From a virus, in IMG/VR virus record IMGVR_UViG_3300042934_000760, positions 1 to 29,465 of that record: DNA of 29,465 nt; one strand, given 5' to 3'. The notes under the pieces were generated by a model. It did not search any database. It was not told the origin of the DNA and was given only the letters and a program-made list of their open reading frames with translations. Shown here one piece after another: positions 8,125 through 27,388 of the stretch; positions within the stretch are counted from its first letter, which is position 1; each line of letters starts with the position of its first letter. The translations under genes and the position numbers were made by a program.

Positions 8125-8187
8125 TATGAACGCCTTTCTGAATCCTGTAAGATAGGTAGGGTGAGTAAACTTTAACAAAGGTGCGGT
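8125..8187. promoter_or_regulatory. Divergent intergenic region
   Basis: 63 bases between the starts of the Rad50-like gene (minus) and the spike gene (plus). It contains the ribosome sites of both (AAAGG type on each strand). CTGTAAGATAGG around 8145 is a possible -10-like element for the plus strand, without a clear -35. Low confidence. Confidence 0.3.
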
Positions 8188-9033
8188 ATGGACGAGGAAG
8201 AGAACCCCAGTAACTTCAACAACGATGCGAGTATGTTTCGTTGCGTGGCCATGGGTACAGCCGCTGAGAACAAAACCATTGGCAGTCTGATGCTGAAGGT
8301 CACGCCCCACGAGAAGCTCACAATGATGGACGGTGAAAACGCCGACCGTGTAGACACGTTGGAGTACTCGGGCCAGAACAGCGACGGCGAGCAGAAAGCA
8401 GGCACCACGTTCATTGGTCAGACCATCAATGCCCACTGGTTGCCGGAGTCCAACCGACAGACCGCTCCGGACATCCGCAGGAACGAGCGTATCAGCCTCT
8501 GGCAGTTCGCTGGTAACGATAAGTGGTACTGGCGCGACACTGGGTTGGATAAAGACCAACGTCGCTTAGAAACGATTGTGATCGCTGTCAACGCTGACCC
8601 CAGTGGTCCGACCAAAGATGACCTGAGTAACTGCTACTTCTTTGAAATCAGTGCCCACAACAAGACCGCCACCTTCTCGACCTCTAAGGTCAATGGCGAG
8701 TTCTGCACGTTCGACGCACAGTTTGACATGAAGAACGGCAAGGCAGTGGTTCAAGATGATCTGGGCGACAGTTTTCTGCTCGATGCCAAGAACACCAACA
8801 TCCGCATGGTCAATGCCAACGGCACGTTCTCGGAGTTGAACAAGCAAGACATCAACCTGAGTGCTCCACGGGACATCAATGCCACGGCGGCTCAGAACGT
8901 GAACATTCAAGCCGGGCAGAACATCAACATCAAGGCCGGTGTCATGGCCATGATCGATGGTGGTGGTTCGGTACTCACGTTGCAAGCTGGGGGCACTACC
9001 CTTAAAACCCCAACCTTTAAAGGCGGTGCGTAA
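8188..9033 (+). CDS. Baseplate central spike protein
   Basis: 281 residues. The N-terminal half looks like a beta-rich OB-type domain. The C-terminal third is a run of alternating beta segments of the spike-helix type (INLSAPRDINATAAQNVNIQ, then QNINIKAGVMAMIDGGGSVL), as in gp5/gpV/VgrG needles that pierce the outer membrane during tail contraction. The end, TTLKTPTFKGGA, is followed by a one-base overlap with a PAAR tip gene, which is the expected partner at the sharp end of the spike. AAAGG lies seven bases before the ATG. There is no lysozyme domain in it, unlike T4 gp5. The assignment rests on the beta-helix pattern and the PAAR neighbour. Confidence 0.82.
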   Translation: MDEEENPSNFNNDASMFRCVAMGTAAENKTIGSLMLKVTPHEKLTMMDGENADRVDTLEYSGQNSDGEQKAGTTFIGQTINAHWLPESNRQTAPDIRRNERISLWQFAGNDKWYWRDTGLDKDQRRLETIVIAVNADPSGPTKDDLSNCYFFEISAHNKTATFSTSKVNGEFCTFDAQFDMKNGKAVVQDDLGDSFLLDAKNTNIRMVNANGTFSELNKQDINLSAPRDINATAAQNVNIQAGQNINIKAGVMAMIDGGGSVLTLQAGGTTLKTPTFKGGA

Positions 9034-9296
9034 TGGCTCTGGTCTCTTTGGTCGGTATCGATCAAGCCGGTGGTGTGATCAACGGTCCAGGGGCACCTGG
9101 GTGGACGTGGAACGGGGCTCCGATCTCCGTGGTAGGGGATGGGGTGGCTGGACACGGTGCAGGCGCTCACGCAGGCCCTGCAATGGCAACGGGCAGTGCA
9201 TGGATGAGCATCAACGGGATTCCTGTGGTCAGGGCCGGTGATGTCGCCACGTGCACGCATCAGGCGACCGGTTCGTCTCAGATGGACATCGACTAG
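9033..9296 (+). CDS. PAAR-type spike tip protein
   Basis: 87 residues. The sequence reads as a PAAR-repeat tip: Gly/Pro-rich turns, GDGVAGHGAGAHAG with H41 and H46, then SINGIPVVRAGDVATCTH with C74 and H76. Three of these His/Cys residues would bind the structural metal ion at the point of the cone. PAAR proteins sharpen the central spike of contractile tails and type VI secretion needles. The ATG shares one base with the stop of the spike gene, so both are made together. No toxin or cargo extension is present. It stops two bases before a hairpin terminator. Confidence 0.9.
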   Translation: MALVSLVGIDQAGGVINGPGAPGWTWNGAPISVVGDGVAGHGAGAHAGPAMATGSAWMSINGIPVVRAGDVATCTHQATGSSQMDID

Positions 9297-13126: not shown

Positions 13127-13135
13127 GTGATCTAG

Positions 13136-13175
13136 GGCTCACTGCATGTAACAGTGCAGTGAGCCTTTGTTTTTG
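13136..13175 (+). terminator. Rho-independent terminator after tail fibre 1
   Basis: Arms GGCTCACTGCA (13136-13146) and TGCAGTGAGCC (13155-13165), 11 base pairs with an 8-base loop, followed by TTTGTTTTTG. This is the most classical intrinsic terminator in the window and separates the two fibre genes. Confidence 0.9.
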
Positions 13176-13198
13176 ACAGCTCAATACGGAGTCACCTA

Positions 13199-14647
13199 AT
13201 GAGCAGCCGACCCTTAATTGCCAAGTACCCGTTCGATAAGACGGGCACCTCGCTGACTAACAAAGTCGTGGGTGAGGTTCTGGAGATCAACTCGGCGCGG
13301 GAACGCGCATTTGTCCCTCTGGCCGGACCCTTTTACACCGACAGCATGGTCATCTACAACAACGACACGGGCAAACCGCTGGTGCCGGTGGATGACTACA
13401 TTCTTTGCCAACCGTTTCAACAAGCCTCGCTGCGTACCGGTAAGGACGTGGAGTGTGTGGTCTGGATCAAGCTGAACGCACCGATCACAGTCCGCATGGA
13501 ATACCAAGTGGTCGGTGGTGAGTACTCCTGGAACATCCAGGCGTTGGTCGACATGATCAACGAGATCGACCTTGACGGCCGCCCTGTGGCTTGGGGGTCG
13601 ATCATCGGCAAGCCTACGGCGTACCCGCCTGCACCGCACATCCACGACATCGGGGATTCGTACGGTTGGGAATACGTGGTGTTCCAGCTCGAAGGGATTC
13701 GTAACGCCATCCTCGTGGGTGACGAAGCGTCTCACGACGAACTGCGCCAACAGATGAAGGCGATGCACGACGAGTTGGAAGCGCTGATCAAGCTGACTGA
13801 CAACAAGATCGAAGATCACCTCAAGGACATGGCCAACCCTCACCAGACCACCAAAGTGCAAGTAGGCTTAGGGCTGGTGGAGAACTTCCCAATTGCCAGT
13901 GCTGCTGAAGCCTTGGCAGGGACAGTGACCAACCGTTACATGACCCCTGCATTGACCACTTCGTTGATCAACCGCATCACGGACGAGAAGCTCAACGCTC
14001 ACGTCAATGATAAGAACAACCCACACCAGGTGACGAAAGCACAGGTTGGGTTGGGTTCGGTACTGAACTACGGCGTGGCCTCGGTTGCAGAAGGTCAGGC
14101 TGGTGTGGCTAACGACAAGTACATGACTCCGGCTGTGACCAAAGCGGCCATCATGACCTTCGTCGGCGATGCGTTCAACGCTCACGTAGCGAACATGAAC
14201 AACCCGCACAACACTACCAAGGCACAGGTCGGTCTGAGCCTCGTTCAGAACTTCGATGTGGCCACCACGGCGGAAGCACAAGCCGGTGTTGCAACGAACA
14301 AGTACATGACGCCTCAGTTGACCAAGGCTGCGATCACGCAAGCGGTGGGCACCGGGCTTCAACAGCACTTGGGCGACTACAACAACCCGCACCGTACCAC
14401 GGCTGCTCAAGTGGGTCTGGGGAACATCCCGAACGCGATCACTCGCGGTCGTTCGGTGAACTCCGATGGTCAGTTGCTGACCGCAGGCTCCATGTTCGAT
14501 CACTTGAACTCCGGTGACCACGACGGTCGTTACATCCTGATCGCCAACGTGGCGCAACAGGGTTCGATCTACGTGACCGGCAGTAAAGCGTACGTGGCAG
14601 TCGATGGCGGATGGCGTCAATTCTGGCCTGCGACTTGGAATGGCTAA
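13199..14647 (+). CDS. Tail fibre protein 2 (paralogue of fibre 1)
   Basis: 482 residues. The N-terminal domain (1-170) is a diverged copy of that in fibre 1 (KYPFDKTGTSLTNKV, GPFYTDS, MEYQVVGGEYS). Four 61-residue units follow, opening NPHQTTKVQVGLG, NPHQVTKAQVGLG, NPHNTTKAQVGLS and NPHRTTAAQVGLG. The end (SKAYVAVDGGWRQFWPATWNG) resembles the tip found in many prophage and phage fibre proteins. GGAG lies eight bases before the ATG. No terminator is visible after it; the JmjC-like gene starts 42 bases downstream, so this fibre may be co-transcribed with the first half of the radical SAM region. It is probably a host-contact fibre. Confidence 0.92.
   Translation: MSSRPLIAKYPFDKTGTSLTNKVVGEVLEINSARERAFVPLAGPFYTDSMVIYNNDTGKPLVPVDDYILCQPFQQASLRTGKDVECVVWIKLNAPITVRMEYQVVGGEYSWNIQALVDMINEIDLDGRPVAWGSIIGKPTAYPPAPHIHDIGDSYGWEYVVFQLEGIRNAILVGDEASHDELRQQMKAMHDELEALIKLTDNKIEDHLKDMANPHQTTKVQVGLGLVENFPIASAAEALAGTVTNRYMTPALTTSLINRITDEKLNAHVNDKNNPHQVTKAQVGLGSVLNYGVASVAEGQAGVANDKYMTPAVTKAAIMTFVGDAFNAHVANMNNPHNTTKAQVGLSLVQNFDVATTAEAQAGVATNKYMTPQLTKAAITQAVGTGLQQHLGDYNNPHRTTAAQVGLGNIPNAITRGRSVNSDGQLLTAGSMFDHLNSGDHDGRYILIANVAQQGSIYVTGSKAYVAVDGGWRQFWPATWNG
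13835..14423 (+). repeat. Tail fibre 61-residue repeats, fibre 2
   Basis: NPH openings at 13835, 14018, 14201 and 14384, an exact 183-base period. The same unit occurs in fibre 1, so the genes share a modular shaft that could recombine. Confidence 0.9.
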
Positions 14648-14689: not shown

Positions 14690-15199
14690 ATGCAACGCAG
14701 GTTAACGGAGTTTGTCTTCAACGGTATCAATAAACAGCTACTGATGGTGGATGAGTTCCTCTCGCACCCTTACCCGTACAGTCAAGGCTTAGTCAAGATT
14801 GTGCGGGACAATGGCACCTTCGATGCCATGAGCATCATGGACACCATTGAACACAACGACAAGCCTATCAAAATTGAAGGGTATGAAAAGATGAACGCGG
14901 TGTTCCATGAGGAATGTCGTCGGTTGGCAGCTCACTTCGACCACCACGGTCCGGTGACCTGCCACCTGTTCATCTCTCCTGAAGATTCCTCCAGTTTCCC
15001 GATGCACACTGACTTGGACGACGTGGTCGTTCACATGGTCAAAGGGCAGAAAACCTTCGAGTTCCCCACCGGTTCATTGAAACTGTGTGAGGGTCAATCC
15101 ATTTATATTCCCAAGGGCACGCCGCACCGCGCAATCAATACCCATGATTCGTTGATGCTCAGCTTTGGCCTTGAGTTATTCCACGTCGAGAAACTGTAA
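14690..15199 (+). CDS. JmjC/cupin-like Fe(II) oxygenase candidate
   Basis: 169 residues with a double-stranded beta-helix pattern. The iron-site motif is HTD (H106, D108) followed by H146 in IYIPKGTPHRAIN, with KGQKTFEF between; this matches cupin-8/JmjC-type 2-oxoglutarate dioxygenases, a family that often hydroxylates protein side chains. The N-terminus is short and has no membrane segment. I chose the ATG at 14690, preceded by GTGGGGTGTGAG, over a GTG at 14678. Its stop overlaps the start of the first radical SAM gene (TAATG), so both are likely made together, and it comes right after a tail fibre gene. Function is probable as an iron enzyme; the substrate is unknown, and a non-enzymatic cupin cannot be ruled out. 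Confidence 0.72.
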   Translation: MQRRLTEFVFNGINKQLLMVDEFLSHPYPYSQGLVKIVRDNGTFDAMSIMDTIEHNDKPIKIEGYEKMNAVFHEECRRLAAHFDHHGPVTCHLFISPEDSSSFPMHTDLDDVVVHMVKGQKTFEFPTGSLKLCEGQSIYIPKGTPHRAINTHDSLMLSFGLELFHVEKL

Positions 15200-16254
15200 T
15201 GGATGCATCTGCTAACCAGAAGACGATCTACGTCAAGACCACGGGAACGTGCAACCTCAATTGCTCTCACTGTTTCACGAACGGCCGTTCTGGCGACAAG
15301 ACCCAGTTCTGCCCAGATACCGTGGGGGACTGGGTTGCTGACTTTATGTCGCGTTACCCGACCGAGACTCGCTACCACATGGAGTTTCACGGCGGGGAGC
15401 CTTTCCTGGTACCTGTAGCCAAGATGAAGCAGTTCGCTGATCGTTTCTGGGACAACCTGAACGTATCGTTCTGCGCCAACAGTAACCTGACGTTCAAACT
15501 GACGGATGAGATCATCTCGTTCATCAAGGAATACTTCGGGTCGCACATTGGGACCAGTTGGGACCAGCACATCCGCTGGGCCAACCAAAAGCAATACGAC
15601 CTGTGGCGCAGCAACTTGGATGTCCTCAAGAGCCACGGGATCAGCATCGGTTTGAAAGTGTCGGTGAGCAAGAGCCTGATCGAAAGCTCAGTGGACTGGT
15701 TCATTGACGAGATGGAGAGCTTTGGTGTTGAAGAGGTGTCCCTTGAACGTTTGACGGTCGATGGAAATGCTGAGATCAACATGGACATCTTCCCGGACAA
15801 CGTGGCGCAGGATGCGTGGTACTTGGCGCTGTACAACCGCTACCATGAACGCAAGCCTAACGTCTCGATCCGCCAGATGGACGTGCTCAAGACCAAGATC
15901 TCCACTGGGATTGTCAAGATCGACACCAACTGCCGCAACTGCGAGCAGAACCTGGTGACGATCAACTCCAATGGCACACTGTCAGGTTGCCCTAACGCAG
16001 CCACTCAGAAACACCACGCCAAGCTGGAACAAGGGGTGGATGCGTTTCTGGTCTCTGAAGGCCGACTGGATCAGATCGCCACAGAGTTGACATGGCACGA
16101 CAACTGTCTTGCTTGCGATGTATTTGATTTATGCGGCGGGGATTGCCACCGGCTGCCTTGGCAGAACGGGCGCTGTGGGGGATTGAAGAACACCCTGCGC
16201 GTGCTGTCTGGTCGAGGAGCCCCTGCTGCTTCCAACTTGATCTTCAAGGGGTAA
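15199..16254 (+). CDS. Radical SAM/SPASM enzyme 1 (rSAM-1)
   Basis: 351 residues. The [4Fe-4S]/SAM motif CNLNCSHC (C18, C22, C25; CX3CX2C) is followed by HGGEP, the SAM-binding GGE motif, and a half-barrel pattern. The C-terminal third has the cysteine set of a SPASM domain: CRNC, then INSNGTLSGCPNA, then CLACDVFDLCGGDCHR and a last C in NGRCGG. Such enzymes, including anaerobic sulfatase-maturing enzymes and RiPP maturases, use a 5'-deoxyadenosyl radical to modify peptides or proteins. It overlaps the JmjC-like gene by one base and is followed three bases later by the Cys/His-tailed protein, the most attractive substrate candidate. A non-peptide substrate remains possible. Confidence 0.93.
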   Translation: MDASANQKTIYVKTTGTCNLNCSHCFTNGRSGDKTQFCPDTVGDWVADFMSRYPTETRYHMEFHGGEPFLVPVAKMKQFADRFWDNLNVSFCANSNLTFKLTDEIISFIKEYFGSHIGTSWDQHIRWANQKQYDLWRSNLDVLKSHGISIGLKVSVSKSLIESSVDWFIDEMESFGVEEVSLERLTVDGNAEINMDIFPDNVAQDAWYLALYNRYHERKPNVSIRQMDVLKTKISTGIVKIDTNCRNCEQNLVTINSNGTLSGCPNAATQKHHAKLEQGVDAFLVSEGRLDQIATELTWHDNCLACDVFDLCGGDCHRLPWQNGRCGGLKNTLRVLSGRGAPAASNLIFKG

Positions 16255-16257
16255 GAC

Positions 16258-16797
16258 ATGCCAGATGAAATTATCAGACAGCGGGTGGCCGACATCGGCA
16301 ACGCTTACATCCGCAACAACGCCAATAGTGGGATCTCATGGGGGACAAACAGTTACCCTTCCGGTTCCATTGCTGGTTGGTTCCGTGGGACAACCGCGGG
16401 GCGTGGGGAGGCCCTGAGTGCCGGTAGCTTTGCAGGCGGTGAAACCTCTGCCAGTCAGACTGCGGCGGTCCTGCGAAACTTCGTGAACGTCTTCACTGAG
16501 ATCCGGACCACGCGGATTGTAATTTACTACCTCGACTACCGTTATGGAACGACGGTCCAGTACGACGGTACCGCTGTGGCTCACACCGTCTATGGCGTGG
16601 GCGATGTCGGCAGCAACGTAGGTTTGCCCGGCCTGACCGCCGGTGCTGAAATGGACCTGAACAACCTGAATGCCAGCTGTAACAACCTTTTGAACAATTA
16701 CTGGGCCAACGCCCGTAATACAGTCCTTACGCTGACCAACACGATCTGCCACACCAGTTGCCACGGTAACTGTCACTGTGCCCGCGGTCGTCGTTGA
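16258..16797 (+). CDS. Cys/His-tailed protein, candidate substrate of radical SAM enzymes
   Basis: 179 residues, unrecognised as a family. Residues 1-60 are Gly/Ser/Ala-rich, the middle (about 60-130) is beta-rich with aromatic residues, and about 130-160 is Asn-rich. The C-terminus is striking: C164-H-T-S-C168-H-G-N-C172-H-C174-A-R-G-R-R, that is CX3CX3C with each of these cysteines followed by His, then a free basic end. One more Cys is near 143. Location between rSAM-1 and the next genes, and the CXXX-repeat tail, recall precursor peptides of radical SAM RiPP systems, though it is longer than usual. Alternatives are a metal-binding virion protein or an unusual haem-binding tail (CXXXCH). 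AAGGGG lies just before the ATG. Confidence 0.8.
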   Translation: MPDEIIRQRVADIGNAYIRNNANSGISWGTNSYPSGSIAGWFRGTTAGRGEALSAGSFAGGETSASQTAAVLRNFVNVFTEIRTTRIVIYYLDYRYGTTVQYDGTAVAHTVYGVGDVGSNVGLPGLTAGAEMDLNNLNASCNNLLNNYWANARNTVLTLTNTICHTSCHGNCHCARGRR

Positions 16798-16810
16798 TCT
16801 GGAGTTAACC

Positions 16811-17671
16811 ATGTCTGAAGAAAAGCCCCAACTATACGGTTATCCAATCCCTGACATGAAAAAGGTGGTCGCTGCATTGAGCGAACCGGATAAACCGAAG
16901 GTAACAAAGGTAGCCAGTGGCGAGGTCATTCAGATCCATACCGCGGCGCCTATTCCTCCGGCTGAACTGAAGCGTAAGTTCTCCGAAGACGTCGAGTTCA
17001 TCTTGGACTACGACGCTGGGCGCTTCAAGGGCAAGACGCTGATGGTCTACCTCTCCAACTTGGACATCAAGGTTCAGTTGAAGTTGAATGACGAGACTTC
17101 AGCCCTCGAGTTGCTGGCGGAGTACCTGAAGATCACCACGCTGGTCAAGATCCCTGAAATGGAGAACTTGGCCATCAACATGCTGCTGGCGCACATGGGT
17201 CGTCCGAACTTCCTCGACTTTGACCCGTCGGCCTTCTTGGCGGAGAACAAAGCGTCGCTGGACATGTGGGAACGTCGGATCAACTCCCTGACGCTCTTTG
17301 CCATGTACTCTCTGGACAAGGAGAAGTACAAGGACTACATCGAAAGCTTCCCGGAAGATCCGGACGATGGCGTGACGGGCCTCAACTTCGTGCACCTGAT
17401 CAAACATGATCTGTTTCCGCTGCTGTTGGCCGATGTGCCAGAGAGCAAGTGGAACTGGAACAAGAAGTACTTCACCGAGTACATGTTTGCCGGTGCCAAC
17501 CTGTTCAAGTATTTCGCCGATGACAACAACCCGCTGTTTGTGGGCATCTTGGCCATCAGCGATCCCGAAGCGTTCAAAGCGATTGCCCCACAGATCGAGA
17601 AAACCCGCCAAGGGTTGAACGAACTCAAAGCCTCGCTCCAGTTGAGGATCGACCATGTACCATCTGTTTGA
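16811..17671 (+). CDS. Unknown protein inside the radical SAM region
   Basis: 286 residues, unrecognised. Soluble; the first 55 residues are Pro/Lys-rich and probably flexible (MSEEKPQLYGYPIPDMKKVV), the rest is largely helical with many Leu, Phe and acidic residues. There are no Cys-rich motifs, so it is not itself an iron-sulfur enzyme. I start at the ATG at 16811 with GGAG six bases upstream; a GTG at 16778 would overlap the previous gene. It overlaps the next gene by 17 bases, indicating coupled expression. Possible roles are a chaperone or docking partner for the substrate, or a tail assembly protein; the sequence does not decide. Confidence 0.8.
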   Translation: MSEEKPQLYGYPIPDMKKVVAALSEPDKPKVTKVASGEVIQIHTAAPIPPAELKRKFSEDVEFILDYDAGRFKGKTLMVYLSNLDIKVQLKLNDETSALELLAEYLKITTLVKIPEMENLAINMLLAHMGRPNFLDFDPSAFLAENKASLDMWERRINSLTLFAMYSLDKEKYKDYIESFPEDPDDGVTGLNFVHLIKHDLFPLLLADVPESKWNWNKKYFTEYMFAGANLFKYFADDNNPLFVGILAISDPEAFKAIAPQIEKTRQGLNELKASLQLRIDHVPSV

Positions 17672-18713
17672 CAAAGTCTACGTCGATACCGAATCGCGCG
17701 TGGATCGGTCTCAGGACCACATCACCATTGGCCCGCGCATTGGCTACGAGTTCTTTGCTGCACCGAACACAGTGGCCGGTGAGCAGTTCGGCTTTGCTCA
17801 GTCGCTGGACAACTGGACCCCTGAAGAGTTCGAGACCATCTTCGGTAAAGCCCTGCTCGATGGCGACAAAGTCTACGTCTACGCTGACGGTCAGTCGTAC
17901 CTGCGCATTTACACGATGCTGGTTAAAGCGTTGCTGCCCAAAGTGGACTTGGACACCTTCAAGTGGATCATGCTCTGCAAGAAGGCCACGTTCAACACCT
18001 CGCTCACCAACATCCGCAAGCCTGCGACTGATGTCCTGTCGACGGTCGTGATCAACACCAAGGTCATCGAAGAGCTGTTTGCCTTTGAAGACCCGCTGTT
18101 GGGTGCCATGGAAACCCTGGTGCAACTGGACGAGCATAAGCTGTCGCTCGAATGGCGCATCCTGCGCCTGAAGACTGACGGTCGTGTGGGCAAGATCCCG
18201 CGGTTGCTCAAAGGTCTGCTGCGCCGGATTGCTCTGGCCAACACGCACGATGCGTTGGACGTCTGGGGCCGTATCCTGACTGACCAAGAGCACTGGGAGT
18301 TCGGTGGCTGCGACATGGAGACCCTGCTCAATGCAGACACGGTCTTCCAAGGCTCCCTGAACCTTCACTACGCCTCAAGTCAGATCTTCCTGCAACCTGA
18401 CCTCTTCAAGAACCCACCGCCTGATGAGTGGATCTGTGGGCTCTTGCAGGAACTGATCGAGTTGCTCGAGCATTGCGACGAAGGGCCGACGGCTGGCCGT
18501 ACACGTTTGGTTCTGAAGTTGCTACAAGACTCGGACAAGAACGTCTACGACCCAACGGTCTGTCTGGAACGGGTCATGACCATGTTCTACGGCAACAAGC
18601 GTCTCGCACTGCCTAACCGCGATTCCGGCAAATACGACGAGAACCTCATCCGTTTCATCCTCGGCACTGACAAGGCGCGTCTGCAAGCCTGTGTCCAAGG
18701 AGCGCAATGGTGA
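17655..18713 (+). CDS. Unknown protein inside the radical SAM region
   Basis: 352 residues, unrecognised. It starts MYHLFDKVYVDTESRVDRSQ; the first half is mixed alpha/beta, the second largely helical (LKGLLRRIALANTHDALDVW and LLQELIELLEHCDE). No membrane segment and no clear catalytic motif; five cysteines are scattered without cluster spacing. GAGG lies seven bases before the ATG, which overlaps the previous gene by 17 bases; its own end overlaps rSAM-2 by 7. The tight coupling on both sides suggests that it works with rSAM-2 and the upstream protein, as a partner or as a substrate, but that is inference. Confidence 0.8.
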   Translation: MYHLFDKVYVDTESRVDRSQDHITIGPRIGYEFFAAPNTVAGEQFGFAQSLDNWTPEEFETIFGKALLDGDKVYVYADGQSYLRIYTMLVKALLPKVDLDTFKWIMLCKKATFNTSLTNIRKPATDVLSTVVINTKVIEELFAFEDPLLGAMETLVQLDEHKLSLEWRILRLKTDGRVGKIPRLLKGLLRRIALANTHDALDVWGRILTDQEHWEFGGCDMETLLNADTVFQGSLNLHYASSQIFLQPDLFKNPPPDEWICGLLQELIELLEHCDEGPTAGRTRLVLKLLQDSDKNVYDPTVCLERVMTMFYGNKRLALPNRDSGKYDENLIRFILGTDKARLQACVQGAQW

Positions 18714-19708
18714 GTAATCTGATCCCTGTAGTGGACTTATTGCAGGACAAGAAAGGGAAGTTCAAGGAAGCTCACCTGATCCTGTTCGAAAAATGCAATA
18801 TGCGTTGCTCTTTCTGCCACCAAGACCATGACAGTGAAGTCGGTCTGAACGGGGATGCGATCTCAGCCAAAGTTGATACGTTCTTAGCCAACGCTCACCC
18901 GGATGAGGCCTACGTGGTCAACATGACGGGTGGGGAGTTGTTCATGGACGACATCCCAGATTGGATGTTTGGCCATTACCTGATTGCAGGTAAGCGCATC
19001 CTCAAGCATTTCAAAGAAGTGAAGCTGGTGTTCGGCACGAACCTCGTCTACGAGAACGTCACCCGTGTGCGCCAGCTGATCGAGAACCTCAAGCCGTACG
19101 GTCATGCGTGCCTGGCGACGTCATACGACCCCGCTGGCCGCTTCAACCCGAAGCAGCACCGTTTATTCCTGAAGAACCTCGATCTGGTGGAGGACTTGGT
19201 TGAGACGGTGAATGTCGTGATCACCCGTCAGAACATCCAGTTGTTCTTGGATGGCAATGAAGGGGAGGAGTTTGACAAGTTCTGCATCCTCTACGACGTC
19301 TACTTCGACCATTACATCCCCAGCGAGCGTTACACGGAACACCAACCGTCTGAAGACCAGATCAGTCAGTTGTACCTGACCCTCAATAGACGCTACCCCG
19401 ATTCCTACCCCATCAAGGCATGGAAAGAACAGCGCTTTAATGACACAACCTGTCGCTCCACGAAGATCATCAACAAAGATGGTGTCGTGACGACTTGTTG
19501 GTCTGAGGCCGGGAAAGACTCCATCCTCGATGAAGGTGCAGGGCTGGCCGCCAAACATGCCGCAGAAGAACGCTTCCTTGAGAAGTACGACTGTTTGGCC
19601 TGTGAGTACTACCAGCGTTGTGGCCTGCGGTGCTTCTTGCACCACAGCTTCGTGGAAGATGGCAGTAACGAGTGCCAGATCAAAAAGATGTTCGACGCAA
19701 TCCTGTAA
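18707..19708 (+). CDS. Radical SAM/SPASM enzyme 2 (rSAM-2)
   Basis: 333 residues. CNMRCSFC (C30, C34, C37) is a canonical CX3CX2C motif; MTGGELF supplies the GGE motif. The SPASM-type end reads TTCRSTKIINKDGVVTTC, then CLACEYYQRCGLRC and a last Cys in SNECQ. AAGGAG lies upstream of the ATG, which overlaps the previous gene by 7 bases. It is the last gene before a perfect 15-base hairpin, so it closes the first transcription unit of the region. Radical SAM chemistry on a peptide or protein is the likely role; sequence resemblance to rSAM-1 is limited mainly to the motifs, so it probably acts on a different site or substrate. Confidence 0.93.
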   Translation: MVSNLIPVVDLLQDKKGKFKEAHLILFEKCNMRCSFCHQDHDSEVGLNGDAISAKVDTFLANAHPDEAYVVNMTGGELFMDDIPDWMFGHYLIAGKRILKHFKEVKLVFGTNLVYENVTRVRQLIENLKPYGHACLATSYDPAGRFNPKQHRLFLKNLDLVEDLVETVNVVITRQNIQLFLDGNEGEEFDKFCILYDVYFDHYIPSERYTEHQPSEDQISQLYLTLNRRYPDSYPIKAWKEQRFNDTTCRSTKIINKDGVVTTCWSEAGKDSILDEGAGLAAKHAAEERFLEKYDCLACEYYQRCGLRCFLHHSFVEDGSNECQIKKMFDAIL

Positions 19709-19711
19709 CGG

Positions 19712-19744
19712 CATAGATGCAGGGGCTCAGCCCCTGCATCTATG
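19712..19744 (+). terminator. Hairpin terminator within the radical SAM region
   Basis: Perfect 15-base arms CATAGATGCAGGGGC (19712-19726) and GCCCCTGCATCTATG (19730-19744) with a TCA loop, followed by TTCTATATT. It is the strongest perfect stem in the window apart from 27411-27444. It separates rSAM-2 from the second group rSAM-3 to rSAM-6. Confidence 0.85.
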
Positions 19745-19822
19745 TTCTATATTGGTGGTTCAAGACTTAAAACTTTACTGTCTCATCCATATGACCGCTA
19801 CTTCATATTCGGAGGTCTGATC
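19745..19822 (+). promoter_or_regulatory. Probable promoter/leader of the second radical SAM unit
   Basis: 78 AT-rich bases between the hairpin and a small frame starting at 19823. As all downstream genes to 27388 are close together on the same strand, a promoter is expected here. GGAGG at 19811-19815 is an excellent ribosome site for the GTG at 19823. No confident -35/-10 pair is seen. Confidence 0.45.
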
Positions 19823-20032
19823 GTGATTACCGAATTTCCTTTGACTGCTGATGGCTACGAAAGCGCTGTACAATGGATCAGAAGGCACGGTCATGCAGAC
19901 AAGCTGGAAGAGACGCCCACGCTGCCTTGCATGACCGTCATCATCCTTGCCAACCAACTCAGGAACCATCCTTGTGGATTTGATCATCAAGCCGACAGTG
20001 CGTTGCAACTTCAAGTGCACCTTTTGCTCTAG
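19823..20032 (+). CDS. Small upstream frame overlapping rSAM-3 (leader or displaced N-terminus)
   Basis: 69 residues from a GTG with GGAGG seven bases upstream, the best ribosome site nearby. It starts VITEFPLTADGYESAVQWIR, has no known motif, and overlaps the radical SAM frame by 59 bases in another reading frame. It may be a small protein that couples translation to rSAM-3, or the true N-terminus of rSAM-3 cut off by a one-base frameshift. A CTC-AGG pair near 19958-19963 is a place where a +1 shift would join the frames. Its codon use looks normal in its first 45 codons and less so beyond. Confidence 0.5.
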   Translation: MITEFPLTADGYESAVQWIRRHGHADKLEETPTLPCMTVIILANQLRNHPCGFDHQADSALQLQVHLLL

Positions 20033-21068
20033 CACCCATCTTTCTGACGATGTCACCGAGATTGTTGAACTGGCTGACATCGACGCGTTTATCAAACGCT
20101 ACCCATGGACCAACACCGTCATCTTGAATGGCGGTGATCCGTTGATGATGAAGCCGGAGTACTACTTCGCCATTATCGACATCCTGGAGAAGTACGACTG
20201 CCCTGCCAACTTGTCCTTTACCAGTAACCTCTGGGCTTTCTACAAGAAGCCGCTCAAGTGGGCACCCTTGTTCCGTCACCCGCGTGTGGCGATGACCACC
20301 TCGTTCCAATACGGGGATGCTCGCTTAAAAGGCGATGGTACGGTCTTTACCGAAGACGAGTTCGTTGACGTCACGGACCTGTTCTTTAAATACGTCGGTT
20401 ATCGCCCTGACTTCATTGCCGTCATTGACAAGTCCAATGAAGACACCGTGATTGCAACGGTTGAACTGGCCAAGCGGTTAGGTGTCGAGGCGAAAGTCAA
20501 TTATGCCGTGGCCTCAGGCCCTGTCGTGGAGAACCGTGGTGTCCTGATGGGCAATGCAAACACCATGTACACTCAAGCCGACATGTACGAGCAGTACTTG
20601 GCGATTCATGATGCTGGACTGGCACAGTACGAGTACAGCACCAAGCAAATGCTGATTCGGTTACGACATGGGGCGACCACTTGCCCATTGGCCCGTGATT
20701 GCGATTCGGGTATTCGTTCGATGCAGCCGGGGCGTAACTACCACTCCTGTGGGGCCTTCGGGGATGACCTTCAATACCCGATCGACTTTGACCGGGAAAT
20801 GGCCGGTGAGTTCTTCACCCCGTTGCAGAACCGTGAGGAACTGCACTCGATGAAGGATGCCTGCAACGCCTGTCCTATGTTTGCGATCTGCAACGGTTGC
20901 AAGAAGACCATTGCGGACACCAGGCGTCTGGGTCTGACCGAACACCATTGCCGCAAGATGAAATCCCTTGCGCCGCGCATCATTGCCTTGAACGGCATGA
21001 GCGAGTATCTGGAACCCACGCCGTACGAAGACGAATCTGTCCAGTTGATCCCGGCGTTGTCAATCTAA
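19974..21068 (+). CDS. Radical SAM enzyme 3 (rSAM-3)
   Basis: About 364 residues from a GTG at 19974, which has AGGA nine bases upstream; a TTG at 19947 is an alternative start. The iron-sulfur motif is CNFKCTFC (C11, C15, C18 from this start), followed by LNGGDPL, a GGE-like motif with Asp. The C-terminal SPASM-like set includes TTCPLARDC, NYHSCGAF, CNACPMFAICNGCKK and HHCRK. It leads a run of four radical SAM genes separated by 10 bases or overlapping. The start is unusual because there is no ATG before the cysteine motif and a well-supported small frame runs just upstream. Protein or peptide modification is likely; substrate unknown. Confidence 0.9.
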   Translation: MDLIIKPTVRCNFKCTFCSSTHLSDDVTEIVELADIDAFIKRYPWTNTVILNGGDPLMMKPEYYFAIIDILEKYDCPANLSFTSNLWAFYKKPLKWAPLFRHPRVAMTTSFQYGDARLKGDGTVFTEDEFVDVTDLFFKYVGYRPDFIAVIDKSNEDTVIATVELAKRLGVEAKVNYAVASGPVVENRGVLMGNANTMYTQADMYEQYLAIHDAGLAQYEYSTKQMLIRLRHGATTCPLARDCDSGIRSMQPGRNYHSCGAFGDDLQYPIDFDREMAGEFFTPLQNREELHSMKDACNACPMFAICNGCKKTIADTRRLGLTEHHCRKMKSLAPRIIALNGMSEYLEPTPYEDESVQLIPALSI

Positions 21069-21078
21069 AGAGTGTCCC

Positions 21079-22020
21079 ATGGAAAAGCCGTTTATCAACC
21101 TCAGCGTCAACCCGTGGTACTACTGCAACTTTCGCTGCAACTTCTGTTACCTCACCGAAGCACAGTTGAGCAACAAGCAGTTCTTGAGCCTTGAACGGTT
21201 TGAGGAGATGCTCGATGAAGTCATGGTCCATTATCAAGTGGGCCACATCGACATCTACGGTGGGGAAGTCTTGCTGCTGCCTGTCGAGTACCTGATGGGC
21301 TTGAAGGATATCCTGCACAGCCGCGGGATTGATGACATCGTCTTGGTGACGAACCTGTCCCTGACAAACGCGGTCAGTGAAGACCCGGACTTTGAGATCT
21401 CGGTCTCGTACGACTTCGGCGCACGGGAGAAGCATGAGCTGGTGTTCCAGAACATGCTCATGATGCCCAACCGGTTCAACATCCTGACATTGGCCTCTCG
21501 TACGTTCTTAGACACGGTGAGTGTGGACGAGTACGTTGACACCATGAACCTGCTAAGTCAGCTCAAAGGGGCTGAGATCAAGCCGTACAGCACCAACCAA
21601 GCCAACGTACACGATGTCAAGTACACCGAGTACGAAGAGTTCGTCTGGGCCGTGATCAATCACCCTGATCGGCGCTTCTACTTCGAGAACGAGACGCAGA
21701 TCAAAGCCTCGTTGGCCGGTGAGCGTAACGCGTTCAGCAACGACCATGTGTACATCACGCCTGAAGGCAAGTTCGCTGTGCTGGAGTTTGATGTCCACGG
21801 TCATGAATTCTTCTTGAACGTCGACACGGTCGAAGGCTATCAGGAATGGGCTGAGCTGGAAGTGGTCTACATCAAGGACAACTCGTTTTGCAAGACCTGT
21901 CCGTTCTTGGGCAACTGTTTGTCTGAACACTTGCGTGACGTGGAAAGTCTGGAGCATTCGTGCAACGGATTCCGAAACCTGTTAGAGAGGTATCAAGCCC
22001 ATGAAGATGGAACACGGTAG
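21079..22020 (+). CDS. Radical SAM enzyme 4 (rSAM-4)
   Basis: 313 residues. CNFRCNFC (C16, C20, C23) is the CX3CX2C motif, and IYGGEVLLLP the GGE motif. The C-terminal set is shorter than in rSAM-1 (CKTCPFLGNC ... HSCNG), consistent with one auxiliary cluster or a reduced SPASM domain. The N-terminus (MEKPFINLSVNPWYY) is short, as in many small radical SAM proteins. The start lies 10 bases after rSAM-3 and the end overlaps rSAM-5 by 20 bases. It is likely an additional peptide-modifying enzyme or a partner of one of its neighbours. Confidence 0.92.
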   Translation: MEKPFINLSVNPWYYCNFRCNFCYLTEAQLSNKQFLSLERFEEMLDEVMVHYQVGHIDIYGGEVLLLPVEYLMGLKDILHSRGIDDIVLVTNLSLTNAVSEDPDFEISVSYDFGAREKHELVFQNMLMMPNRFNILTLASRTFLDTVSVDEYVDTMNLLSQLKGAEIKPYSTNQANVHDVKYTEYEEFVWAVINHPDRRFYFENETQIKASLAGERNAFSNDHVYITPEGKFAVLEFDVHGHEFFLNVDTVEGYQEWAELEVVYIKDNSFCKTCPFLGNCLSEHLRDVESLEHSCNGFRNLLERYQAHEDGTR

Positions 22021-23083
22021 CGTCCAACACCGGCAGCGGCTGGAGATCACCCTGGACATCTTCCGGGGCTGTAAACATGCGTGCTCCGGTTGCATGATCG
22101 ACAAAGCCATGGGTGGGGATGTCACGGACATCCCTGAACTGCAAACCTTGATCCGTGAGATGGTCACGGCGGGTTACGTGGCGTTTGACTTGGGGGTGGG
22201 CCCTACGGACTACATGTCGTCGGAGAACACCCAGGAGGTCATGAGCAACCCGACCTTTCAAGCGATGGCACAGATGTTCCACCAAGTGACGTTCAACGCA
22301 GCGTTTCTTGAGAAGGACATGGACCAGTACGCCGCGATGGTGTCTGACATCGACGACGCTGTACCCGGCATGCCCATCCGTTTTCTCATCCCGGCCTCGC
22401 CTACGTTCTTTAAGACCGAGAAGTTCGGCAAGATGATCGAGGAGAAGTTGCAGTTTGTGAAAGACCAGTTCCAGCTAGCCTATCTCAATGAGGCAGGCTT
22501 TGTGGTCAACTGTACTCACGACACTGTGACCGATGACTTCGAAGCGCAGATGATGAACGGCTTTGACATCGAGTTCCCCGTGGAGAAGGATGACATTCTG
22601 AGCATCCCGTATGGCCGGGGTCAGAACAAGGACCTGATGATGGCGCAGAACATCCGTCGGGTGTCGCACCGCATCTCCTCCTTTTATGCCCAGCTCAATG
22701 GGGTCGATGAACGCCGTCGCAACCCGGACCTGCATCTGGACACAGGGACCATGGTGAACCTGTTGTACACCGGCGGGAAACTGTACTGGGTGCCGTTTCT
22801 GAAGGACGACTGTCCCTTCATTGACGATGACTTCAGCATTCCTCGTCCTTGGACGATGGAGAACCTGCTGGCCACCCGTACAAAGGCCCTGCAAGCCTCG
22901 CTAGAGCATTTAGAAGGCACGCCATGCCTCGTGTGCCCTTATCTGTCGAGCTGTGCTGAGAAGGGCATCACAAGCATCATGAAGAAGATGGCCATCAAGG
23001 ACTGTCTAGTGGGGTTAGAACATGCTCTCCCAATTGGTAGCCCAGACCTTCAACATCTCGTTGGAAGTGTTGACCGGGTGTAG
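22001..23083 (+). CDS. Radical SAM-like protein 5 (rSAM-5), diverged GGE region
   Basis: 360 residues. CKHACSGC (C24, C28, C31) keeps CX3CX2C, but the usual GGE motif is replaced by GVGPTDYMS at the same place. The end has CLVCPYLSSC and a further Cys (IKDCLVG), like the auxiliary-cluster half of a SPASM domain, after a RPW stretch (FSIPRPW). It is a tandem paralogue of rSAM-6 (shared VGPTD, GG.LY.VP, PRPW, CX2CX5CA). AGAGG lies ten bases before the ATG; the last 62 bases overlap rSAM-6. It is clearly of the radical SAM family by motif; whether SAM binding is intact without GGE is an open point. Confidence 0.85.
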   Translation: MKMEHGSVQHRQRLEITLDIFRGCKHACSGCMIDKAMGGDVTDIPELQTLIREMVTAGYVAFDLGVGPTDYMSSENTQEVMSNPTFQAMAQMFHQVTFNAAFLEKDMDQYAAMVSDIDDAVPGMPIRFLIPASPTFFKTEKFGKMIEEKLQFVKDQFQLAYLNEAGFVVNCTHDTVTDDFEAQMMNGFDIEFPVEKDDILSIPYGRGQNKDLMMAQNIRRVSHRISSFYAQLNGVDERRRNPDLHLDTGTMVNLLYTGGKLYWVPFLKDDCPFIDDDFSIPRPWTMENLLATRTKALQASLEHLEGTPCLVCPYLSSCAEKGITSIMKKMAIKDCLVGLEHALPIGSPDLQHLVGSVDRV

Positions 23084-24065
23084 GTACAGTTGTGCCGGGT
23101 GTACAGTGGAGAAGAACTTTGCTCCACTGGACATCTCGGAGAAAGACACGGACGATCTGATTGCTTTGATCCACAGTCTTAAAGACGACGGGTTCCGGTT
23201 GCTGGAATACCGTGTGGGTCCAACCGACATCATCAGTGCAGACAATGGCTTTGCAGCGCTGGACCATCGACTCTCTCGTGAGTTCGGTAAGCTCTACAAA
23301 GCCTTGAACCTGAACATGGCGATGCTCGACACCAAAGGCTTTGAAGAGTTGGCCACGTTGGTGGAGGACGTCATTCCGGGCAAGAAGCTCAGCGTGACGA
23401 TTCCTATGTCGTTAAAGAATACCCGCAATACCAAGTACCTTGCAGAGCTTAAAAAACGCATTCTGTATTTCAAGAGCCTGCTGCCCACCGTTGATTTCAA
23501 CCGGGTGTACTTGGCATTGAACGTCGGCGAGGATACGCTCAAGCACCTGAGCACGGAAAGCTACGACCACGCGCATGACTTGGATCTGGGTGTGGGCATT
23601 GTGGTGGAGTTCCCGTTCAACCATTCCCGTAAAGGGTTTGGGAATCTGCTGGTCGCTGAAGAGTTCAAGGCTGACTTGACTGAATTCATTGACTTCATGA
23701 AGACGCGGGTCAACACCAAGAGCTTTCGTCCGTTGCAGCCTGCTGTTCTAGAAGGCTTTGAGTTCACTTACCGTGGGGGCGAGCTGTACTCGGTTCCAGT
23801 GGTCGTGGAGAACCTGCCTGTGTTTCATCCTAAGTTCCTGTTGCCCCGTCCGTGGAATGCTGCGACGGTGTATGGTTACAAGGAGGAGACCTACTACAGC
23901 AACCTTGAGAAGTACGTGGTGCACCCAACCTGTGGGGACTGCTGCTTCTTGGATCACTGTGCACGGGGTGACGTTCACCGTATCATGGAATTGATCGGCA
24001 CAGACAAATGCCTGACCGACTCCAAAAACCAACTTCAGTACTATCACGTCGAGAGTCCTTCATGA
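23022..24065 (+). CDS. Radical SAM-like protein 6 (rSAM-6), paralogue of rSAM-5
   Basis: 347 residues. CRYSCAGC (C20, C24, C27) gives CX3CX2C; YRVGPTDIIS takes the place of GGE as in rSAM-5. The C-terminal cluster is CGDCCFLDHCARG and a later DKCLTD. The whole protein parallels rSAM-5, including GGELYSVPVV and LLPRPWN, so the pair arose by duplication and may act as a heterodimer or on two positions of one substrate. Its ATG lies within the end of rSAM-5 (62-base overlap), with GGGG upstream; its end overlaps the next oxygenase gene by an ATGA. This makes it part of one tightly coupled unit. Confidence 0.85.
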   Translation: MLSQLVAQTFNISLEVLTGCRYSCAGCTVEKNFAPLDISEKDTDDLIALIHSLKDDGFRLLEYRVGPTDIISADNGFAALDHRLSREFGKLYKALNLNMAMLDTKGFEELATLVEDVIPGKKLSVTIPMSLKNTRNTKYLAELKKRILYFKSLLPTVDFNRVYLALNVGEDTLKHLSTESYDHAHDLDLGVGIVVEFPFNHSRKGFGNLLVAEEFKADLTEFIDFMKTRVNTKSFRPLQPAVLEGFEFTYRGGELYSVPVVVENLPVFHPKFLLPRPWNAATVYGYKEETYYSNLEKYVVHPTCGDCCFLDHCARGDVHRIMELIGTDKCLTDSKNQLQYYHVESPS

Positions 24066-24493
24066 AGCTTGTACAAGTTGATGACGTTCCCATTCCAGAC
24101 TGGCTGCTTGAAGCAGCCTTCTGCCAACCCAATAAGGCTTACATCAGTGAAAGATCGATTCAAGACTTCGCGTGGGACGTCCTCCTCCCGCTGGCGCGTC
24201 GTCATCCTGACGTTAACATTTCTTTGCGGCCCTGTTCCAACCATGTCCACATCGGCGATGTTGGCCTGACGCCGCACAACCACTTGCCACATGCGTTTAC
24301 CTCTGTCCTCTATCTGGAGGATTCAATGGGTGAACTCGTGCTCAACCCGGATACTGCTGAAGAGCGCATGATCAACCCGATCAAAGGCCGCTTTGTGATG
24401 TTTGCAGGTGACATCATGCATTCGGTGAACCCATCCCCTTGTCCAGAACTACGCATCTCCTTGGTGACGAACTATGAATACCCCTCCGTATAA
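24062..24493 (+). CDS. 2-oxoglutarate/Fe(II) oxygenase-like protein
   Basis: 143 residues. The double-stranded beta-helix pattern is seen in PHNHLPHAFTSVLYLED, GELVL and GRFVMFAGDIMHSVNP..ELRISLVTN. Likely iron ligands are H72 or H74, an acidic residue (E91) and H120, with R131 as the 2-oxoglutarate anchor, as in the family of short phage and bacterial 2OG oxygenases. I start at the ATG at 24062, overlapping the rSAM-6 stop; a longer frame from 24008 would lie inside rSAM-6. It probably hydroxylates a protein or small molecule in the same pathway. The acidic ligand is not certain. Confidence 0.75.
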   Translation: MKLVQVDDVPIPDWLLEAAFCQPNKAYISERSIQDFAWDVLLPLARRHPDVNISLRPCSNHVHIGDVGLTPHNHLPHAFTSVLYLEDSMGELVLNPDTAEERMINPIKGRFVMFAGDIMHSVNPSPCPELRISLVTNYEYPSV

Positions 24494-24911
24494 AGACTAT
24501 CAGCGCCTGTACAACGAACTGGTGCAAGAACACCCTGACGACTTCGGCAACTTCGAGTACATCGAAGAAGACGAGATCGTACAGAACGCGCTCAAGTACT
24601 TCGACAGCGCCACGTTCCCGCTGATCTACCCGGCCAAGAGCTACGCGGTGGCTTTGATCTACGCGTTCAAGATCAAAGAGGTCTACGGTGTGCCTGTGTT
24701 GGAGACGTTGAACGACCCCGACCTGTTCTTAGGCCAAGACCCGTACTTCGTGCCGTACAGCTGCGACCCTGAAAGTTACCAAGGCATCATTGCCGCGCTG
24801 CAAGACCGTCCGGGTTGGCTTGGACAGGGCTGGGCACCGAAGTCAGTCGAGTACTTCAACCTCGAGTGCACCGAGGAGGGGATCAACAAAGTACTGGACG
24901 CCATGAAATGA
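24474..24911 (+). CDS. Unknown small protein in the oxygenase group
   Basis: 145 residues, unrecognised. Acidic, rich in Tyr, Phe, Pro and Asp/Glu (MNTPPYKDYQRLYNELVQEH), without cysteine clusters or His motifs and without membrane segments. It overlaps the previous oxygenase by 20 bases and the next by an ATGA (24908-24911). The embedding between two oxygenases suggests a joint role, perhaps as a substrate or a specificity partner, but the sequence does not show it. Confidence 0.78.
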   Translation: MNTPPYKDYQRLYNELVQEHPDDFGNFEYIEEDEIVQNALKYFDSATFPLIYPAKSYAVALIYAFKIKEVYGVPVLETLNDPDLFLGQDPYFVPYSCDPESYQGIIAALQDRPGWLGQGWAPKSVEYFNLECTEEGINKVLDAMK

Positions 24912-25465
24912 ACCTGATCGAGCCGTGGAAGATTCAGATCGGTCAGTTCAACCTGGCCGACAAGTTTGACATGGAACAATTTGCAACCGAGGTGTACACC
25001 CTGTACGCCATGACTGGAGGGGAAGACGAGGCTCAGTCCAAGTTAGACCCTGACCTCTTCCCTTTAATCCTGGAAATGCGTGATGCTGTCATTACACCCG
25101 CTGTACGTGAGTTTACCCAAAGTTGCTTTGACTACCCTCTTGACGATTTCGACGTTGAGACCAACGGAAAATGGATTCCGCCGGGCGAAGGACTCTATCC
25201 CCATTATCACCCCAGCTCCTGCTTCTCTGCCATCGTTTACCCTGGGGATTCCCCCAGCGCTCTGAACCTGTTTGACCCGCGGGGCAATGCGTGCCGTGGG
25301 TACCCGAAAGCCATTCGGGACAAGTTCATGACCAAGATGCAGATCTCACCCAAAGCCGGGGACGTCTATATCCTGCCCAGTTACATTCAGCACAGCGTTT
25401 CGTATGTACAAGAGGAGACTCGCCTCTCGCTGCTGCATGAATACTACCCACGCAATACAAGGTGA
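24908..25465 (+). CDS. 2OG-Fe(II) oxygenase (tandem copy A)
   Basis: 185 residues. The beta-helix core carries HYH (H99, H101), NLFDPRG with D123, and IQHSV with H162, followed by R172 in the RLSLL strand: a complete iron and 2-oxoglutarate set of the 2OG-FeII_Oxy_5 style (H.H....S..YP.......DPR...G.....PSY.QH). The first 60 residues form a helical lead (MNLIEPWKIQIGQFNLADKF). The neighbouring gene has the same residues at the same positions. The start is the ATG at 24908, overlapping the previous stop; a frame beginning at 24815 would lie within the preceding gene. The likely action is hydroxylation of a protein or metabolite. Confidence 0.88.
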   Translation: MNLIEPWKIQIGQFNLADKFDMEQFATEVYTLYAMTGGEDEAQSKLDPDLFPLILEMRDAVITPAVREFTQSCFDYPLDDFDVETNGKWIPPGEGLYPHYHPSSCFSAIVYPGDSPSALNLFDPRGNACRGYPKAIRDKFMTKMQISPKAGDVYILPSYIQHSVSYVQEETRLSLLHEYYPRNTR

Positions 25466-25469
25466 CTAC

Positions 25470-26018
25470 ATGGAAATCTTTCAACCGTGGCAAATCAAAC
25501 TTGCGCGCGTCAACATCGCTGACAAAGTCGACCTCGAAGCGTTGACCGGCGAGATCCACACCCTGCACTGCCTGTCGCCTCGTGAATCGGCCGTGCCGCA
25601 TCCGGTGACGGAGGATCAGTTCCCGCTGATCTGTGCCCTGCGTGATGGGTTGCTGACCGATCTGGCCAAGGACTACATCAAGGAAGCCTTCGGCGTAGAA
25701 CCTGAGAACATGACCATCGACACCTTTGGTAAGTGGTTCACCAAAGGCGAAGCATTGGGTTCTCACCTGCACGGTAATTCGTTGGTGACCAGCGTGTTCT
25801 ACCCGGCCACGTACGGCAACGGCATGACAATGGTTGACCCACGTTTCAACGCCAGCCGCGGTTACCCGCGCAGCATCCGTGACAACCACTTCGGCGATCA
25901 TGTCCTGCGCCCAGTAGCCGGTGACGTGTTCTTCGTCCCCAGTTACGTGCAGCATTCCATTGCACCCGTCGGTGAAGACCTGCGTGTGTCGCTGATCAAC
26001 GACTTCTTCTTCCAATAA
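25470..26018 (+). CDS. 2OG-Fe(II) oxygenase (tandem copy B)
   Basis: 182 residues, paralogue of the gene just upstream. H99, H101, D123, H162 and R172 fall at exactly the same residue numbers as in copy A, and stretches such as RGYPRSIRD and GDVFFVPSYVQHS are near copies. It begins MEIFQPWQIKLARVNIADK. AAGGTGA lies just before the ATG at 25470; a longer frame from 25404 is antithetical to the overlap with copy A and is rejected. Two such enzymes side by side suggest different sites or substrates. It ends the run of iron enzymes and is followed 10 bases later by an unknown gene. Confidence 0.88.
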   Translation: MEIFQPWQIKLARVNIADKVDLEALTGEIHTLHCLSPRESAVPHPVTEDQFPLICALRDGLLTDLAKDYIKEAFGVEPENMTIDTFGKWFTKGEALGSHLHGNSLVTSVFYPATYGNGMTMVDPRFNASRGYPRSIRDNHFGDHVLRPVAGDVFFVPSYVQHSIAPVGEDLRVSLINDFFFQ

Positions 26019-26689: not shown

Positions 26690-27388
26690 ATGTCCGACTT
26701 GTATAAACAGCTTCAACGTGACCTGAAAGCGCTGGGTCTGTACACCGGTGAGCCAGACGGTTCGTGGGGTCCTTTGTCCCACGGCGCGTTCGTCAACGCC
26801 CGTCGTTCTGTCGGTAATCCACCGAAGGGTATGACACCGTTGCTGCTGAGCTACTGTAAGGCTACTGCTTGGTCCAACCGCGTCTCTGATGAGTTCGTGC
26901 GCAAGACCAAGAAGATCGCTGTGGACCTGAAGTTGCCGTGGGATGGCGCTGACACCATGATGGCCTGCATGGCCTTCGAAACCGGCGGCAAGTTCAGCCC
27001 TACTGTGAAGAACGGTGCAGGTGCTCCTTACTACGGGATCATCCAGTTCGGTGAAGACGCTGCGACCGATGCTGGCACTACCTTGCCTGCCTTGCTGAAG
27101 ATGACCGCCGAGCAACAGCTCGACTACGTCTACAACTTCTTCAAGCCGTACACCGGCAAGCTGAAAACCATCAGCGACATCTACATGCGCATCCTCCTGC
27201 CTAAAGCGGTGGGTCAGCCTGAAGACTACGTGCTGTTCAGTGAAGCGAATACCAAGTCCAAGGCGTACCTCCAGAACAAAGGTCTGGATGCCAACCGTGA
27301 CGGCCTGGTGACCAAAGCAGAAGCCTCTGCCAAGGTAGCGCAGAAGTACGTTGAAGGGCTCAACCCCATCAACCTGAAAGTTGCGTAA
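26690..27388 (+). CDS. Lysozyme/transglycosylase-like peptidoglycan hydrolase
   Basis: 232 residues. Residues 1-40 resemble a peptidoglycan-binding repeat (LQRDLKALGLYTGEPDGSWG). A lysozyme-like (SLT-type) domain follows, with the probable catalytic E97 in MACMAFETGGKFSP and the substrate-groove motif YYGIIQF (114-120), then a helical half with TAEQQLDYVYNFFKPY. Near the end, DANRDGLVTKAE (D200, N202, D204, V207, E211) is a perfect EF-hand calcium loop. There is no signal peptide. It may be the endolysin, needing a holin, or a tail-associated lysin. GGAGG precedes the ATG. It is the last gene of the long plus-strand block, ending at a hairpin. Confidence 0.87.
   Translation: MSDLYKQLQRDLKALGLYTGEPDGSWGPLSHGAFVNARRSVGNPPKGMTPLLLSYCKATAWSNRVSDEFVRKTKKIAVDLKLPWDGADTMMACMAFETGGKFSPTVKNGAGAPYYGIIQFGEDAATDAGTTLPALLKMTAEQQLDYVYNFFKPYTGKLKTISDIYMRILLPKAVGQPEDYVLFSEANTKSKAYLQNKGLDANRDGLVTKAEASAKVAQKYVEGLNPINLKVA

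Follow-up and report, generated by a model that had tools for sequence, protein, structure and literature searches.

CHxS-tailed proteins beside radical SAM gene arrays of large phages as candidate substrates of a proposed RiPP-like maturation pathway

Several phages carry many genes for radical S-adenosylmethionine (radical SAM) enzymes. Such genes number 11-12 in reports on the Campylobacter phages CP220 and CPt10 (PMC2853527), 12 in the marine T4-like genome TARA_ERS488813_N000010 (PMC5332604) and 8 in 332-Vera (PMC12390700), and phages of this kind are termed 'highly unusual' (PMC2853527, PMC12390700). The arrays have been interpreted as auxiliary iron-sulphur metabolism (PMC5332604), and radical SAM cassettes are also borne by the host-recognition clusters of pelagimyophages (PMC7029224). 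Here, we analyze an IMG/VR virus record of 29,465 bases (IMGVR_UViG_3300042934_000760, hereafter the window), which contains a block of six radical SAM-like genes (rSAM1 to rSAM6) and four oxygenase-like genes between positions 14690 and 26018. A first-pass annotation of this block had stated that phages usually carry one or two radical SAM genes, which is fair as a general rule but does not extend to the phages listed above, with their 8 to 12.

Comparison of the block with related loci strongly suggests that these phages alter one end of a virion protein chemically, by an undescribed route. We consider the block likely to be a dedicated maturation pathway for the C-terminal tip of one virion protein, resembling the pathways of ribosomally synthesized and post-translationally modified peptides (RiPPs). 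The protein is encoded within the block and ends in a repeat of CHxS units, which is very probably the substrate of the radical SAM enzymes, and one of the features by which RiPPs are recognized, a ribosomal precursor with adjoining modifying enzymes, is found at the loci encoding such tails. The first-pass annotation had proposed a dedicated modification pathway with either the adjacent tail fibres or a Cys-rich protein as targets; the Cys-rich protein is strongly supported by its invariant tail and by its linkage to the radical SAM genes, while the tail fibres are not needed as targets.

The CHxS tail and its linkage to radical SAM genes

The candidate substrate gene (16258-16797; like all genes of the block, on the plus strand) lies directly 3′ of rSAM1 (15199-16254) and encodes 179 residues. 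The protein consists of a domain which AlphaFold predicts to be folded with confidence (pLDDT 92.6), followed by a C-terminal tail of low confidence. The tail (residues 164-179; 16747-16794) comprises three CHxS units and then RGRR, the final residues being CHTSCHGNCHCARGRR. In a 70-row alignment of tail proteins, mean column identity is 23%, yet C164, H165, C168, H169 and C172 show no variation, and conservation reaches 90% or more at S167, H173, R176, G177, R178 and R179. Within the tail, the codons for Cys, His and Arg differ synonymously among loci, so that selection acts on the peptide. In two jumbo-phage contigs (L020, 11022-11720; L027, 11030-11740), the tail has grown to many CHSSCHSN(VPV) repeats, a pattern that would suit CHxS as the repeated unit of modification.

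The first-pass annotation suggested looking for a similar block in other large phages, and related blocks were indeed found in Pseudomonas phage pPa_SNUABM_DT01, Burkholderia phages FLC6, FLC8 and SURPRISE13, Agrobacterium phage Atu_ph07 and Sinorhizobium phage Phosso, as well as in IMG/VR. In all five of the annotated-phage loci examined, the gene 3′ of rSAM1 ends in CHxSCHxSCHxxR(G/S)RR and shows little other similarity. Searching IMG/VR by rSAM1 similarity yielded 28 loci, 27 of which have a CH repeat just downstream, and the 28th stops within rSAM1.

The converse search used a DNA pattern for CHxxCHxxCHxxRxRR followed by a stop codon and no radical SAM information. For a full count, the IMG/VR scan was split into four codon classes, which returned 65, 55, 104 and 61 stretches, some of them shared. 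About 250 viral loci match the pattern, and bacterial and archaeal genomes gave 19 matches. Positions left free in the pattern are still conserved, with Ser or Asn at -13 and -9, Ser, Ala or Asn at -5, and Gly at -3. The tail closes an open reading frame (ORF) of at least 60 residues in 264 of 272 pattern loci. A relative of the window radical SAM proteins is encoded on the fetched piece for 254 of these 264 tail genes, at a distance of at most 60 bases for 212 of them. Of the other eight loci, five are cut at the tail gene, yet bear the usual neighbour families, and three bacterial ones (Frankia, Pseudoalteromonas and Bordetella), which have no radical SAM relative, were used as chance controls. 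Among whole tail-bearing records, the phage radical SAM family phrog_1802 is present in 31 of 31, with at least four copies in 30; L063, L110 and L142, negative on the fetched piece, are positive for phrog_1802 as whole records.

The tail and these radical SAM genes are near-obligatorily linked. Because an equivalent block is conserved in distant phages, the grouping of radical SAM and oxygenase genes is far beyond chance, and, judged from sequence comparison, hundreds of large phages encode four to six or more predicted radical-chemistry enzymes in a block beside a CHxS-tail protein. The association extends from jumbo phages and marine T4-like phages to predatory bacteria.

In Bacteriovoracaceae, Bdellovibrionaceae and relatives, the tail protein, radical SAM genes and two further families of the block (those of the genes at 16778 and 24474, described below) are found on chromosomal-looking contigs, and the Bdellovibrionota version of the system is apparently chromosomal. 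B12-binding radical SAM genes and ABC transporters lie near the Bdellovibrionota loci (L178-L185), one of which also has a prepilin-like protein with an S74 domain. Three MAG contigs with a phage-type block that were binned as Euryarchaeota, Rickettsiales and Bacteroidetes (L156, L161 and L163) may be misbinned phages. A separate branch (L092, L118, L129 and others) encodes two tandem substrates of about 127 residues, both with a CHxS tail, and its radical SAM gene lies downstream rather than upstream; a tblastn search of annotated phages with the short tandem-type substrate returned zero matches.

Enzymes and partner proteins of the block

All ORFs of the block were recovered exactly where the first-pass annotation had placed them, and the cysteine motifs it described, an N-terminal CX3CX2C and a C-terminal CX2CX5C, are present in six out of six radical SAM-like proteins. 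Related loci supply 182 orthologues of the six genes; 179 of them have CX3CX2C, and every one has the C-terminal motif in the form CX2CX4-7C. The proteins encoded by rSAM1, rSAM2 (18707-19708), rSAM3 (19974-21068) and rSAM4 (21079-22020) match phrog_1802 (5e-52, 3e-32, 7e-47 and 4e-32, respectively) and are clearly radical SAM enzymes. PF04055, proposed earlier as a check on all six, is over its cut-off only for rSAM3 (7e-9) and rSAM4 (1e-8). Taken singly, rSAM5 (22001-23083) and its divergent paralogue rSAM6 (23022-24065) matched no radical SAM model in profile searches. Both align with the other radical SAM proteins across the CX3CX2C region with a profile-profile probability of 93-97%, they fall in the same profile, and both cysteine motifs are present in 25 of 25 rSAM5 orthologues. 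Hence, these two are, with less certainty, divergent radical SAM proteins, and the earlier count of six stands firmly for four and less securely for the two that are recognized by motif and profile comparison only. In rSAM1, the SPASM model TIGR04085 scores 26.2 bits against a cut-off of 27, and the other radical SAM proteins of the block score lower.

The block opens with a gene for a predicted cupin/JmjC-like Fe(II) oxygenase with an HxD...H site (14690-15199; PF08007 8e-8, PF07883 3e-6). At its other end, three genes encode predicted 2-oxoglutarate (2OG)-Fe(II) oxygenases (24062-24493, PF13640 2e-6; 24908-25465, PF13759 3e-10; 25470-26018, PF13759 4e-7), each over the cut-off of its family. 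The four oxygenase-like proteins of the first-pass annotation can thus be specified by Pfam profiles as three 2OG-Fe(II) enzymes and one cupin/JmjC-like protein, between which profile comparison detected no relatedness.

Three further proteins are conserved with the enzymes. The gene at 16778-17671 encodes a mostly helical protein (phrog_20767; model pLDDT 88.9), the gene at 17655-18713 a second conserved partner, and the gene at 24474-24911 a small one (phrog_20737, 3e-38). No mutual relatedness of the 16778 and 17655 proteins was detected, and a search of the 16778 protein against the PDB with Foldseek and VIA-align gave nothing usable, an absent match not amounting to a new fold. Neighbour families were counted only at tail loci with enough flanking sequence, upstream for the cupin family and downstream for the 16778 and 17655 families (8 kb downstream for the 24474 family). 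Of the loci that qualify, 123 of 138 carry the 16778 family, 87 of 120 the cupin family and 77 of 104 the 17655 family. The 2OG family occurs at 42 of 54 and the 24474 family at 41 of 54, the latter being found in bacterial loci as well. The gene order common to T4-like marine contigs is fibre, cupin, rSAM1, tail protein, 16778, 17655 and further radical SAM genes. Elsewhere in the window (387-2000, 5644-8559 and 26690-27388), and outside the block, there are genes identified as RNase H-like and SbcC-like by their synteny with DT01, together with one for a baseplate hub/peptidoglycan-binding protein.

Virion location, proposed pathway and alternative explanations

Upstream of the block, the window encodes a baseplate spike protein, a PAAR spike protein close to the block (9033-9296) and, directly 5′ of it, two tail-fibre genes (10751-14647, plus strand; phrog_2163, phrog_13857 and other tail families). 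Baseplate and tail-fibre genes precede the block in unrelated phages; in T4-like marine contigs, these encode a baseplate wedge subunit and tail-fibre proteins. At one locus (L030, 11050-12000), the CH-repeat protein runs on into a Peptidase_S74 domain (1.5e-11), known from trimeric fibres and spikes of phages as a self-cleaving chaperone. Viral proteins that resemble the predicted substrate fold in a structure search include the CH-tail protein of Atu_ph07. Three proteins of 504-660 residues from Myoviridae sp. ctijX18 in BFVD (A0A8S5USJ8, A0A8S5USJ7 and A0A8S5USV2) have the same predicted fold, and a search of the substrate protein against the PDB with Foldseek and VIA-align yielded nothing usable, which is no proof of a new fold. 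In Atu_ph07, a mass spectrometry study places virion proteins mostly in the clusters of coding sequences (CDS) 31-76, 170-215 and 284-329 (PMC6102473). Its numbering agrees with that of RefSeq, as seen from the locus tags of the portal (gp198) and the prohead core (gp204), and CDS 170, at the lower edge of a virion cluster, is the CH-tail protein. From the fibre and baseplate neighbourhood, the S74 fusion and the Atu_ph07 cluster boundary, it is quite likely that the tail protein is in the virion.

In the proposed pathway, the 16258 protein would start out as a folded domain carrying a flexible (CHxS)3-RGRR tail at its C-terminus. It would be presented by the 16778 protein, possibly a recognition or carrier factor, which is the most constant non-enzymatic partner and the best candidate for this role. 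RGRR may serve as a recognition tag, with L030 and L033 as exceptions. The radical SAM/SPASM-like enzymes would act on the Cys, His and Ser residues of the tail, thioether or carbon-carbon crosslinks being the most likely products, and the cupin and 2OG enzymes would probably hydroxylate. Crosslinking is the leading guess because maturases of peptides and proteins are the closest match of rSAM1, albeit far below their cut-offs, and we advance it tentatively. The modified tail would then cap a tail fibre or baseplate appendage as a hard, oxidation-proof, or receptor- or metal-binding point. A broader proposition is that hundreds of unrelated large and T4-like phages, along with some predatory bacteria, employ at least four radical SAM enzymes to turn (CHxS)n on a virion or surface fibre into a crosslinked, non-proteinogenic tip, which would make it a new class of modified structural protein with a chemistry of its own; here we regard the balance as even.

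Several points weigh against this reading. The case for modification of the tail is wholly comparative, and the virion support from Atu_ph07 depends on a cluster boundary. The NCBIfam similarities of rSAM1, nearest to the PapB, AmcB, YhhB, QhpD and anaerobic sulfatase maturase models, are so far below the equivalog cut-offs that the chemistry cannot be read from them. No recognized RiPP recognition element, leader protease or exporter was seen in the phage loci. In addition, the features of the tail are not all strict, since RGRR is absent in L030 and L033 and the third His in L035.

A rather unlikely alternative is that the CHxS tail is a metal-binding tip (for zinc or iron, perhaps in a trimer), with the enzymes directed at glycans, cofactors or other proteins of the virion. 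Repeats of Cys and His typically serve as metal ligands, and the nearby PAAR spike protein belongs to a group that forms the metal-binding tip in other systems. A further point in its favour comes from CP220, where no CHxS tail was found in 100 of 177 kb examined and a different, probably unrelated radical SAM cluster at about 70-85 kb (L177) lies beside amidinotransferase and nucleotide-sugar transferase genes; hence, not every multi-radical-SAM phage has the tail system. However, at least four adjoining radical SAM enzymes would be unneeded for pure metal binding, and the radical SAM genes and the tail are inseparable over very distant phages and bacteria. This inseparability also argues against the two other explanations below. 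It should be added that metal binding and modification of the tail are compatible and do not exclude each other.

The layout of a precursor with radical SAM enzymes could also belong to a true RiPP, that is, a small molecule or peptide cut from the C-terminus and released against the host or rival bacteria, for which the ABC transporters adjoining one bacterial version (L182) and the chromosomal copies in predatory Bdellovibrionota may be quoted. We hold this improbable: the conserved part is the C-terminus while a large N-terminal domain is retained, neither protease nor exporter was noticed in the phage blocks, and both the S74 fusion and the virion cluster of Atu_ph07 speak for a structural protein. 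That the radical SAM enzymes serve iron-sulphur or low-oxygen metabolism of the host appears very remote, although such an interpretation has been published for phages rich in these genes (PMC2853527, PMC5332604). An A-type iron-sulphur carrier (PF01521) present in 13 of 36 large tail-bearing virus records, a count without a control set, would fit host metabolism. On the other side, the radical SAM proteins are phage-specific families tied to one structural-region gene, whose tail is under strong protein-level constraint. The carrier might instead feed the radical SAM array, which might explain iron-sulphur genes in marine viromes.

Significance and comparison with known systems

A text search for the tail motif strings found no paper, nor did we find one linking phage radical SAM enzymes to a virion or tail substrate; most subscription journals are outside the coverage of these searches, and an earlier description is possible. 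If maturation of the tail is true, this would be, to our knowledge, the first case of radical SAM chemistry used by a phage on one of its own virion proteins. The abundance of iron-sulphur enzymes in some phages, hitherto ascribed to host metabolism, would then have an explanation, as possibly would the iron-sulphur assembly genes of marine phages. The present analysis provides a precise candidate substrate, a 16-residue motif and cultured phages that carry the system, which together make the targets of phage radical SAM arrays open to direct testing. New enzymes for crosslinking peptides could also come from the system, as could a receptor-binding or piercing tip of a new kind.

The published multi-radical-SAM phages share with the block their many radical SAM genes, several of them having these in structural or host-recognition regions, whereas the accessible portions of the reports mention neither a substrate nor a tail motif (PMC2853527, PMC5332604, PMC12390700, PMC7029224). 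Among the nearest known systems are the radical SAM/SPASM maturases of RiPPs (PapB for ranthipeptides, AmcB and YhhB for cyclophanes, DynA and DarE), in which a SPASM-like enzyme is likewise found beside a ribosomal substrate bearing Cys or His. The best scores of rSAM1 are with RiPP maturase models, yet PapB (NF047865) gives 51 bits against a cut-off of 340. Unlike these systems, the phage block has several radical SAM enzymes per substrate, and the substrate is a large folded protein conserved at its C-terminus. QhpD, the maturase of quinohemoprotein amine dehydrogenase, and the anaerobic sulfatase maturases are similarly radical SAM/SPASM enzymes which act on a protein, and rSAM1 matches them weakly, below their cut-offs; however, they have other targets and a single enzyme per substrate.

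The His-Xaa-Ser (Hxs) system (HxsA with HxsB and HxsC) resembles the block in the repeated H-x-S of its substrate and in having more than one radical SAM enzyme, but in the phage tail a Cys precedes every His. Membership of this system was rejected: the 16258 substrate protein is without a match in NCBIfam, the comparison of rSAM1 with HxsB gives 35.6 bits against 370, HxsB and HxsC matches are far below cut-off, and no HxsD match was seen. The tip of the T4 long tail fibre, gp37, offers a comparable His-rich repeat, with iron-binding HxH units at the far C-terminus of a fibre, although it is without Cys and without modifying enzymes. Judged from sequence comparison, the system would be radical SAM maturation of a ribosomal product, which is of a known kind, acting on a new kind of substrate.

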